33,415 nt of DNA from an uncultured Chloroflexota bacterium (GTDB taxonomy: Bacteria; Chloroflexota; Dehalococcoidia; Lucifugimonadales; GCA-002694895). The position numbers were made by a program, and so were the translations under genes. Positions 13,419 through 17,174 of the stretch are shown here, piece by piece. Below the pieces are notes generated by a model, which did no database searches, was not told the DNA's origin, and saw nothing but the letters and a program-made list of their open reading frames with translations. The DNA is taken from NCBI GenBank assembly GCA_950054395.1, contig CATLOZ010000009.1, forward strand, positions 1-33,415, written 5' to 3'. Numbering within the stretch: position 1 is the stretch's first letter; each line of letters starts with the position of its first letter.

Positions 13419-14279
13419 TTAAGTTACTTTGACTATTTTGTATTTTATTTCACCTGCCGGTGCTGATATTGTAACATGATCGTTTTCACCTTTCCCCAGG
13501 AGGGCTTTTCCAAGTGGAGACTCAAGAGATATTTTAGATAAATTAACATCTGCCTCAGGTGAAGCTACAAGATTAATTTTAGTTCTTTTGTTTTCTTTTT
13601 CCAGTGTTACTTTAGATCCTATTTGTGCAATTTTATTTTTCTTATTACTTCTTTTTGTGTTAAATATAACTGACTTCCTCAATGTTTCTTCTATGGTTTT
13701 AATTTGAGATTCAATTAACCCTTGTTTTTCTCTTGCAGCTTCTAATGGTGCATTTTCTCTGAAATCTTTATCTGCTGCAGCTTTATTAATATCAACAACC
13801 ACATCTTCTCTTTCTTTATATTTTACATTTAATTCTTTTTCTAATGAATCGTGGTATTCTTTGGAAATTTCAACAAAATCGCCCTCATGTACTTTTGATT
13901 TTAGCGATACTGATCCACTTCTTCGACCTTTTTTATTTCTTATATGATTCCCAAGATTTGATTCAGTAAAACCTTCAGTATGAATATAATTTAAATAATC
14001 TCTTGCGACAGTTAATTTTTTAGAAGCATTTTGATTTGAATGTTTTAAGTTAGTTATTTTTACGTATTGCTCAATAAAGAAAGGTTCGATGATATTAAGA
14101 TTAATATTCTCTAGATTGGTATTTTCATCATATGATTTATTTTCAAGACTTATAGTTAGCCATTGAATAAAAGAAGAAAGATCGTTTTTTATAGTTTCTT
14201 TCCTAGATTTCCTCATTCTATTAGTATATAAATTTACTGATTTAATCAGTGTATTTCCGGGTTTAATATCTATACTCAT
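13419..14279 (-). CDS. greA: GreA-type transcript cleavage factor with N-terminal recombinase-like SAM domain
   Basis: The 286-residue product has two parts. Residues ~138-286 are a GreA: coiled coil with the acidic tip KDFRENAP (Asp172, Glu175 match the catalytic D41/E44 of E. coli GreA), AAREKQGLIESQIKTIEE, then the globular domain with SPLGKALLGK and APAGEIKYKIVKV. This rescues backtracked RNA polymerase by transcript cleavage. Residues ~10-118 look like the N-terminal SAM-like core-binding domain of XerC/D-type recombinases (RKETIKNDLSSFIQWL, NASKKLTVARDYLNYI, GFTESNLGNHIR). No recombinase catalytic domain follows. Normal GreA has ~158 residues. AGGAG before the ATG supports the long start. 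It follows polA by 21 bases. Confidence 0.88.
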   Translation of the reverse strand: MSIDIKPGNTLIKSVNLYTNRMRKSRKETIKNDLSSFIQWLTISLENKSYDENTNLENINLNIIEPFFIEQYVKITNLKHSNQNASKKLTVARDYLNYIHTEGFTESNLGNHIRNKKGRRSGSVSLKSKVHEGDFVEISKEYHDSLEKELNVKYKEREDVVVDINKAAADKDFRENAPLEAAREKQGLIESQIKTIEETLRKSVIFNTKRSNKKNKIAQIGSKVTLEKENKRTKINLVASPEADVNLSKISLESPLGKALLGKGENDHVTISAPAGEIKYKIVKVT

Positions 14280-14300: not shown

Positions 14301-17174
14301 TTAACTCATTTCGCCTAAGTTTTGACCTTTTTGTATATTAATGGTTAATGGAACATTTAATTCTACTACATTGGGCATGATTTTACTAAGTATATTTGAA
14401 AGATCTTTTGATTGATTTTTATCACATTCAAAAATCAATTCATCATGTATTTGTAAAAGCATTTTTGTTTGTATATTTTGGTAATCACTTGAATTATTTA
14501 TATTTATCATTGCAATTTTAATTATTTCTGCAGCGGTACCTTGAATTGGCATATTAATTGCCATACGCTCCCCATGAGCTCTTATTCGTTTATCATTTGA
14601 TTTTATTTCGTCAATATATCTTTTTCTTCCAAATAATGTTTCTACGTACCCTTTGTAGTATATTTCTTCTTTGGTTTTTTCTATATAATCTTTAATTTTT
14701 TCAAATCTTTGAAAATACAACTCTATAAATTCCTTACCTTTTTGAATTGATAGGTTAGTTTGTCTTGAAATGCCATAAGCGCTTAGTCCGTATAAAACTC
14801 CGAAATTTAATATTTTAGCTATTCTTCTCATTTCATCATTTACATTGGTTAAATCACATTCATACATGGTAGCAGCTGTAAAATTATGAATATCTTCTCC
14901 TTTCATAAATGCATTTTTGAGATTGGGATCTCCAGAAAAATGAGCTAATACCCTTAATTCTATTTGTGAATAATCAGCAGATACAAATTCATTGTCTTCT
15001 TCCTGTACCGCAAATGATGATCTGACTAGTTTTCCATAATTGGTTCTTTTTGGGATGTTTTGAAGATTTGGATCGCTGCTGGATAATCTTCCTGTTGTTG
15101 TTCCAGCTTGATTAAATTTTGTATGAATCCTGTTTGTTTTGGGATTTAACAATTTTGGTAATGTCATTACATAGGTGGATAAAAGTTTTGAAATTTCTCT
15201 GTATTCCTGAATGTAATTTAAAAATTGTATTTTGGTATTGTCTTCAAAACTGAGGTTGAATGATTCAGATTCTTTAAATTTGTATGTTAATCCATTTATT
15301 AATTCTGTTATCGATTCTGCTCCAGTAGAGTAACCTAATTTGGTTTTTTTTATGTTTTCCGTAGATAAATTTAATTTTTCAAATAAAATTTTACTTAGTT
15401 GCAGTGGTGAATTTAAATTAATTTCTTCCTGAATTAAAGATTTAGTATTGTTTTCAATTGTATTGATTTTATTTAAAAATTCGTTTTGCAATTTATTTAA
15501 TAGATTTAAATTAATTGGCATTCCCTCACTTTGCATTTGAATTAATATTGGTATTAGCTTTATTTCAAGTTCATCAAACAATTTATTCAAATTATTATTT
15601 GATAATTCATTGTCGAATTTTTGTTTCAATTTGTATGTGAAGTATGCATCGTTAATAGCATACTTAGCTATTTCATTGACTGGTTTTTCGCCAATGCTTA
15701 TTTGAGATTTACCTTTCCCTATAATATTTGTGATTGGTTCTAAATCTATATTAAATAAATCTTTTACTAGTTCTTTTAATCCTATATTTCTATACCCTAG
15801 AAGATTGGCAGCTATTAATGTGTCAAAATTAAAATTTTTAATATTTATTGTTATATTATGGTTTATATATGTAGTATTTAGTACTGAAAAATCAAAGTTG
15901 ATATTATGAGCTATTTTTAAAATTTCACTTGATTCTAATATTGGTTTTAATAATTCCAAAGATTCTTTTAATGGTAGATTATTTTCTTTCACATGGTTGA
16001 ATGGAAGATAATAACCGGTTGATTCACCGTATGAAAAAGATATTCCAACTAATTCATTGTTCATTACGTCTAGACTTGATGTTTCAGTATCTATTGCAAA
16101 TTCCTTTTTTTGTAATAGTATTTCAATCAGATCATTTAATTTTGAAATTGAATTTATTACTTCAAATGTAATTTCATTTTCATCGTTATTGCTCGCATTA
16201 GTAATTTCATCTTCATCGTTTTTATATTTATTTGTAATTTTATCTCCATCGTTTTTGTTATCATTATTTGAACCAAATGAATCTGAGATATTTATTTTTT
16301 CTAGTCTTTTTATTAGTGAATTGAAATTTAATTCTTTTAAAAATGAAATTAAACTTTCATTGTTTATATTATTTATTTCAATATCATTTAAATTAATTTC
16401 AACAGGGACTTCCAGATAAAGTTCAATTAATTGTTTAGCTTTTATTGAATTATTAAAATTTTCCAGTAAATTATTTTTTAATTTTTCTTGTTTTATTAAA
16501 TTAAGATTTTCTGAGAGTGAATCTAGAGTTTTGAATTCATTTAATAATTTTATAGCAGTTTTTTTTCCGACTCCTGGTATGCCTGGGATATTGTCTGAAC
16601 TATCACCCGTCAGAGATTTGAAATCAACTATTTGATTTGGATTCAATCCATCATACACTTCGTTGATTAAATTTTTATTGTATTCTATAATTTCGCCATT
16701 TCTTGATGTGGTTATTATGTGAATATTATCATCAATTAATTGGTGTAAATCTGAATCACCTGAGTAAATTAATACTTTTGTGTTTCCAACACCTAATGTT
16801 TTTCCAATTGTGCCTAGTACATCATCTGCTTCGTAATTATTTACAATAATGCTTTTTATATTTGTTGAAGGTAATTTTGTTGTGATTATTTCTAATTGTT
16901 TTTTTAATTCTTCTGGAGTCTCAGATCTGTTAGCCTTGTATTCATTGTATAATTCATTTCTAAATGTTGGGCCTTTCGGATCGAAAACAAAAGCTAGATG
17001 AGTAGGATTTAAAGTATTGAGTAACCTGAAGGTAGTATTGAAAAAGCCATATATTGCTCTAACCTCAATTCCATTATTATTTATCATCGGATTGGGGATT
17101 CCAAACCATGATCTAAACATTAAATAATGTCCATCAATTAATAAAACAATTTTGCTATTATTATTAATTTTCAT
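14301..17174 (-). CDS. polA: DNA polymerase I
   Basis: A 957-residue, three-domain enzyme for gap filling and primer removal. The 5' nuclease (about 1-295) has EADDVLGTI, SGDSDLHQLI and the helix-hairpin-helix IPGIPGVGKKTA. A low-complexity linker with three 11-residue repeats follows (307-339). The 3'-5' exonuclease seems active: DTETSSL (Exo I), HNINFDFSVL (Exo II) and YAINDAYFTY (Exo III) keep the acidic residues. The polymerase part has motif A DYSQIELRVLAHFSGD, motif B RRIAKILNFGVLYG (Phe at the ddNTP-discrimination site) and motif C QIHDELIFE. No ribosome binding site is clear. greA follows in the same direction. Confidence 0.98.
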   Translation of the reverse strand: MKINNNSKIVLLIDGHYLMFRSWFGIPNPMINNNGIEVRAIYGFFNTTFRLLNTLNPTHLAFVFDPKGPTFRNELYNEYKANRSETPEELKKQLEIITTKLPSTNIKSIIVNNYEADDVLGTIGKTLGVGNTKVLIYSGDSDLHQLIDDNIHIITTSRNGEIIEYNKNLINEVYDGLNPNQIVDFKSLTGDSSDNIPGIPGVGKKTAIKLLNEFKTLDSLSENLNLIKQEKLKNNLLENFNNSIKAKQLIELYLEVPVEINLNDIEINNINNESLISFLKELNFNSLIKRLEKINISDSFGSNNDNKNDGDKITNKYKNDEDEITNASNNDENEITFEVINSISKLNDLIEILLQKKEFAIDTETSSLDVMNNELVGISFSYGESTGYYLPFNHVKENNLPLKESLELLKPILESSEILKIAHNINFDFSVLNTTYINHNITINIKNFNFDTLIAANLLGYRNIGLKELVKDLFNIDLEPITNIIGKGKSQISIGEKPVNEIAKYAINDAYFTYKLKQKFDNELSNNNLNKLFDELEIKLIPILIQMQSEGMPINLNLLNKLQNEFLNKINTIENNTKSLIQEEINLNSPLQLSKILFEKLNLSTENIKKTKLGYSTGAESITELINGLTYKFKESESFNLSFEDNTKIQFLNYIQEYREISKLLSTYVMTLPKLLNPKTNRIHTKFNQAGTTTGRLSSSDPNLQNIPKRTNYGKLVRSSFAVQEEDNEFVSADYSQIELRVLAHFSGDPNLKNAFMKGEDIHNFTAATMYECDLTNVNDEMRRIAKILNFGVLYGLSAYGISRQTNLSIQKGKEFIELYFQRFEKIKDYIEKTKEEIYYKGYVETLFGRKRYIDEIKSNDKRIRAHGERMAINMPIQGTAAEIIKIAMININNSSDYQNIQTKMLLQIHDELIFECDKNQSKDLSNILSKIMPNVVELNVPLTINIQKGQNLGEMS
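16158..16256 (-). repeat. Three 33-bp in-frame tandem repeats in polA
   Basis: Three consecutive 33-base units (16224-16256, 16191-16223, 16158-16190 in reading order) encode KNDGDKITNKY, KNDEDEITNAS and NNDENEITFEV. The central part, read on the plus strand as GTAATTTCATCTTCATCGTT with few changes, is shared by all. They lie between the 5' nuclease and the 3'-5' exonuclease and lengthen an acidic, Asn-rich linker. Confidence 0.8.

Follow-up and report, generated by a model that had tools for sequence, protein, structure and literature searches.

A GreA transcription factor fused to a recombinase-type core-binding domain in the Dehalococcoidia

Introduction

GreA, a rescue factor for stalled RNA polymerase (RNAP), is among the core transcription factors of bacteria. 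It is usually regarded as an invariant protein of about 158 residues and two domains. In the Gre fold, the N-terminus of the protein is located at the base of a coiled coil. The C-terminal domain is the part that binds RNAP, whose secondary channel admits the coiled coil (PMC4598747, PMC3132773). In MtbGre (Rv1080c), D43 is essential for cleavage while the substitution E46R is tolerated; mutation of Ser127 abolishes activity, probably through a lost interaction with RNAP; and Tyr50, the equivalent of the tip tyrosine, has been discussed as required for binding backtracked RNA (PMC3132773). Keeping both acids does not guarantee cleavage, and Rv3788 and Gfh1 are the examples (PMC3132773, PMC4598747).

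Here we report a GreA with a different architecture. The window, by which we mean the whole stretch of 33,415 nucleotides that was analyzed, carries a greA gene in which a domain of the kind found in tyrosine recombinases precedes an otherwise intact GreA. A description of such a fusion was not found in the literature searched (open-access papers only), and this form of GreA appears to be undescribed. Is the fused protein still a transcript-cleavage factor, and what could a recombinase domain be doing in it?

An intact GreA with a conserved tip

The fused greA gene occupies positions 13419..14279 on the minus strand (read 14279..13419), and it encodes 286 amino acids from an ATG start with AGGAG upstream. 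The preliminary description of this locus did not give the strand; the minus strand is the coding strand of this open reading frame. Orthologues in the same genus are 71-74% identical across their full length.

That description had proposed an intact GreA at residues 138-286 with the acids D172 and E175, and both the Pfam matches and an alignment to E. coli GreA (1grj) agree. The coiled-coil domain (residues 138-205; 13665..13868, minus strand) matches PF03449 (GreA_GreB_N) with E = 1e-11 and 45.3 bits for a cut-off of 24.5, and the C-terminal, RNAP-binding domain (residues 215-286; 13422..13637, minus strand) matches PF01272 (GreA_GreB) with E = 8.7e-21 and 74.1 bits for a cut-off of 26.9. 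The NCBIfam GreA models match the protein below their full-length cut-offs (TIGR01462: 108.9 vs. 139). The predicted model of the fused protein compares to 1grj with Z 16.2 over 146 residues, and the alignment places the tip of the coiled coil at K171-D172-x-x-E175-N176 (13752..13769, minus strand), with D172 and E175 the counterparts of D41 and E44 of E. coli GreA.

In an alignment of 109 fused orthologues, the tip Asp is found in 109/109 and the Glu in 108/109; the Asn that follows the Glu and residue S254 are found in all 109, and the D/E pair is present in 56/56 representative fusions. The tip position after N-x-P is a Tyr in 10/109 and a Leu in 98/109, the window protein included, with a Pro preceding it in 108/109. 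Because of this replacement of the tip Tyr by Leu, cleavage by the fused GreA may be weaker than, or altered relative to, that of E. coli GreA.

Most of the larger genomes of the class also have a stand-alone Gre paralogue. Of 65 such paralogues examined in the class, not one combines D41 with E44. Their tip is usually GGTVDNAEY or one of its variants, and further tips include STVNNAEY and SSQADAEY (L188-L200, L208-L257). Judging by these aligned tips, the fused form is the only Gre of the class, among those examined, that keeps the D/E pair, and the acid-less stand-alone paralogue is a candidate Gfh1-like factor. In a PF01272 search of 20 genomes of the class, 19 have no GreA_GreB protein other than the fused ORF, several of these 19 being single-contig genomes with 99% completeness, and the same is true of the window's own genome (76% complete).

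These observations bear on whether the fused protein is a cleavage factor at all, or rather inhibits or modulates RNAP in the manner of Gfh1. The Leu at the tip with the Pro before it, seen in most members, would suit an inhibitor, and Gfh1 and Rv3788 inhibit despite their acids (PMC4598747, PMC3132773). But an inhibitor is hard to reconcile with a protein that is the sole GreA_GreB in nearly all of the genomes searched and the sole bearer of the D/E pair among those examined, and some members do keep the Tyr. We regard this alternative as improbable.

As a separate observation, genome G160 of family f50 encodes a protein exceeding 980 aa (L187:1-2949) in which an SF1-helicase (AAA_11/AAA_12) and an MTES_1575 REase are combined with GreA_GreB at the C-terminus. 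Its domain content suggests a role in defence or conflict, in which it would reach RNAP through the Gre C-terminal domain.

A core-binding domain of the recombinase type

Residues ~7-118 (13926..14261, minus strand) correspond to a core-binding (SAM-like) domain of the tyrosine-recombinase type, identified by profiles, an AlphaFold fold match, and conserved Lys/Arg. It is followed by a flexible linker (residues 119-132; 13884..13925, minus strand) with pLDDT < 50 in both AlphaFold models, and the region of the linker (residues 118-136) varies between 13 and 23 aa among 109 orthologues. The preliminary description had assigned the SAM-like domain by pattern only, adding that standard GreA has no such domain. 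The comparisons that follow support the second statement, and give the first the profile and structural backing that it did not have.

Pfam alone is too weak to identify this domain, since a Pfam scan does not find Phage_int_SAM in the window protein, and just a handful of family members match it. The XerC model TIGR02224 matches weakly, with E = 0.0067 for the window protein and E = 0.0015 for the isolated N-terminal domain (N-domain). The same N-domain is found in 29 relatives, and when the family profile of 29 rows is compared to the PDB, the top match is the integrase core-binding domain 3nrw (E = 9.3e-5), followed in the ranking by 2kd1, 2kj5, XerD 1a0p, and XerA 5hxy, all of them recombinases; unrelated chains also appear, at E-values of 0.03-1. 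With an enlarged profile of 76 rows, the PDB match was no sharper (3nrw at E = 3.4e-4). In single scans of 76 diverse members, 23 have an XerD match and 22 an XerC match at E <= 0.01, with a best XerD E-value of 2.6e-6.

The AlphaFold model, for which 109 orthologues were aligned, has a pLDDT of 88.5 and consists of two confident blocks and the linker, with values mostly above 90 within the N-domain. In this model, the N-domain takes the recombinase core-binding fold: residues ~7-117 superpose on 3nrw with Z 12.4 and an rmsd of 1.9 A over 98 residues, and the domain also fits lambda Int (Z 11.1) and XerD (Z 9.1). Among the structure matches listed, those in the N-domain region are all recombinases, and the unrelated ones fall on the coiled coil. 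The N-domain has 9-16% identity to the solved recombinase structures, and outside the window's genus the sequence identity to the window protein is mostly about 15-30%. Helical folds can reach middling Z scores by chance, and for that reason the case rests on the agreement between the profile, the scans of individual members, and the fold. Together, the profile comparisons and the predicted structure confirm the N-domain as homologous to the core-binding domains of XerC/XerD and phage integrases.

The rest of the recombinase is missing. Neither Pfam nor NCBIfam reports a match in the protein to the recombinase catalytic domain (R-H-R-Y), and the GreA domains fill everything past residue 138. 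Because that catalytic domain is absent, the fused protein cannot recombine DNA.

Translation and selection

Could the N-terminal extension be untranslated, or a relic, with a normal GreA being made from a start near residue 130? A proteome of D. mccartyi CBDB1 reports GreA cbdbA743 acetylated at K17 (PMC7918482), and this numbering would fit such a proposal: in the presumed D. mccartyi orthologues, an internal Met (MTASGYKK...LK17) puts a Lys at position 17, and the upstream Met does not. From the fit of K17 to the internal Met, we think that the D. mccartyi annotation probably starts inside the gene and omits the N-domain. For L074, L076, and L078, all of family f50, this K17 numbering suggests that the annotated start is too far downstream. 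The K17 match is among the grounds on which we infer that f50 is Dehalococcoides/Dehalogenimonas.

Other evidence makes an untranslated extension extremely improbable. The window gene has no ATG, GTG, or TTG between codons 22 and 160, so that an internal start is very unlikely in it, and a start near residue 130 would require a rare codon (ATT at 138); with no ordinary start codon there, the start near residue 130 that the preliminary description had named as a refutation is rejected for this gene. Beyond the window, the open frame comes with a homologous N-domain across most of the class (counts are given below). Among strains of family f50, the N-domain has a dN of 0.004-0.03 against a dS of 0.69-0.89, an omega below 0.04, a constraint at least equal to that on the GreA part. 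Ribosome-binding motifs favor the upstream starts: they accompany an N-terminal candidate start in 101/150 genes vs. the inner start near the GreA part in 27/150, and the first count, for which several candidate starts were considered and the best one kept, is favored by this choice. The N-domain is under strong purifying selection, and it is very probably translated as protein.

Distribution, origin, and neighborhood

A survey of relatives finds the fusion conserved. A full-length match is present in about 168/197 sampled Dehalococcoidia genomes, called at a best E <= 1e-50 when stand-alone GreA matches are never better than about 1e-45, and an open frame of 260-316 aa spans the match in most of 40 relatives. 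In a sample of the phylum, the fusion is also found in other Chloroflexota families (f111, f120, f123, f125, f130, f132, f134, f137, f140, f141, f148, f149, f152, f156, and f159), and many families of that sample have plain GreA alone. Among cultured organisms, Candidatus Lucifugimonas marina (L136, complete genome) appears to carry the orthologue, and so, apparently, do Dehalococcoides/Dehalogenimonas. In a tree of the GreA part, 56 fused rows fall on one side of a branch with an SH-aLRT of 94, and this favors, without proving it, a single origin of the fusion. The fusion is ancient, and it is a core gene of the class. The preliminary description, right about a GreA joined to a SAM-like domain, had overlooked this class-wide span and the fact that the fused protein carries the sole canonical catalytic tip among the Gre proteins examined in the class.

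Families f43 and f97 seem to be without the fusion. Five fairly complete class genomes belong here (G045, G104, G132, G167, and G179) that seemingly have no fused GreA, and some of the stand-alone Gre copies in genomes of these families have a D/D tip. Secondary loss of the fused GreA and its replacement is possible in f43/f97.

That the fused gene came from a mobile element or a phage was also considered and rejected. The viral contigs yielded no relative, and the matches listed from plasmids are to ordinary GreA, covering the GreA part and little before it. The one phage match that reaches residue 86 is in Pseudomonas phage Y6 (L032, OQ572408.1, 19223-25822); it is a plain 158-aa GreA beside carB, an ordinary bacterial chromosome segment, and for that reason the unverified Y6 record is probably host-contaminated.

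The gene directly upstream is polA, encoding a complete DNA polymerase I by Pfam (14301..17174, minus strand). The polA-greA order is kept in the genus relatives L088-L090, with a gap of 22-24 nt, and the two genes are probably co-transcribed in the window's genus. At one other locus, polA is two genes away from the fused greA. Since the neighbors differ outside the genus, the link to polA is not general, and the initial suggestion of a tie to the polA operon holds as adjacency within the genus and finds little support at the other loci. No gene neighbor is conserved class-wide around the fused greA at the loci compared. Those that recur in subsets of loci, with names assigned by eye, are divergent rnpA/yidD-like genes, TerC-like, FAD-linked oxidase, and ThiC/CinA-like genes.

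What the N-domain might do

A core-binding fold alone is no proof that the isolated domain binds DNA. The median pI of the N-domain is 9.6 vs. 6.6 for the GreA part, and in 150 sequences Lys/Arg occupies residues 93, 114, and 117 in 100%, 99%, and 97% of the cases, and residues 36, 59, 88, 101, and 116 in 81-90%. Because the N-domain is basic with conserved Lys/Arg, our best guess for a ligand is nearby DNA or extruded RNA, and DNA binding by the N-domain is plausible from its sequence.

Alternatively, the N-domain could be a protein-protein adaptor that kept the recombinase fold and recruits a repair factor, an elongation factor, or an RNAP subunit. Core-binding domains make protein contacts too in recombinase assemblies, the N-domain sequence is divergent, and some of the family's basic residues (36, 39, and 59) are no longer present in the window's genus. 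Against an adaptor stand the strongly basic character of the domain and its three nearly invariant Lys/Arg positions, and we found no class-wide conserved neighbor that would name a partner. We consider an adaptor unlikely, although less so than the inhibitor discussed above.

On the evidence of sequence and models, we lean toward the view that the cell relies mainly on the fused protein for transcript cleavage, and that this GreA has gained an N-terminal domain for binding nucleic acid. In this proposal, the C-terminal domain would dock on RNAP and the coiled coil would insert in the secondary channel, where D172 and E175 would help the polymerase cut backtracked RNA. Given where the N-terminus of GreA is located, at the coiled-coil base, the N-domain would remain outside of the channel on its tether of 13-23 residues. 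There, its conserved basic face and tail would hold on to nucleic acid close by (duplex DNA most likely, extruded RNA possibly), and that grip would retain the fused GreA on stalled complexes or recruit it to them.

More tentatively, the class may have rebuilt its sole cleavage-competent Gre as a secondary-channel factor tethered to nucleic acid, with the stand-alone Gre, its acids lost, turned into a regulator or competitor; we would not put this at even odds. If true, the rescue of backtracked complexes would be coupled to DNA contacts, as in encounters with roadblocks, replication, or repair. We know of no case of such coupling for Gre, DksA, or TFIIS factors.

The copy that keeps the acids is the one whose architecture changed, long ago and class-wide, which would indicate that backtrack rescue is open to re-engineering, and the fused GreA offers a direct test case for anchoring a Gre factor to DNA. 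A practical consequence is that the annotated start may hide the N-domain in cultured organisms that carry the orthologue.

Comparison with known systems

The fused protein is like GreA (E. coli 1grj, and MtbGre Rv1080c) in its coiled coil tipped by D and E, its RNAP-binding C-terminal domain, and its conserved S-P motif. Unlike E. coli GreA or MtbGre, it has an N-terminal recombinase-type domain of ~118 residues on a flexible linker, and its tip reads DxxENAPL where ordinary GreA has DxxENAEY. With XerC/XerD, lambda Int, and 3nrw it shares the fold of the N-domain, the order of the helices, and a basic C-terminal tail (N-L-A-x-H-x-R-x-x-K); unlike in XerC/XerD and lambda Int, the domain is joined to GreA, and the catalytic domain and Tyr nucleophile are absent downstream.

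Gfh1 and Rv3788 share the Gre fold, and the stand-alone paralogues of the class may, like them, have no cleavage activity. The fused protein differs from Gfh1 and Rv3788 in that it is not a divergent paralogue; its D/E pair is intact, and often a genome has no other Gre.

Large N-terminal additions to GreA are also found in the NCBIfam models PRK06330 and PRK14720 (model lengths 718 and 906). Those additions are much longer, and these models either match the GreA part or score far under the curated cut-offs; nothing in the NCBIfam scan indicates a relationship between their added regions and the N-domain. Finally, in the TPR-GreA/B-C-PIN conflict proteins, the Gre C-terminal domain likewise serves as an RNAP-targeting module within a fusion (PMC8195603). 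There, GreA/B-C is combined with TPR, PIN, and effector domains in predicted defence proteins (PMC8195603), whereas the fused GreA is a conserved core gene.
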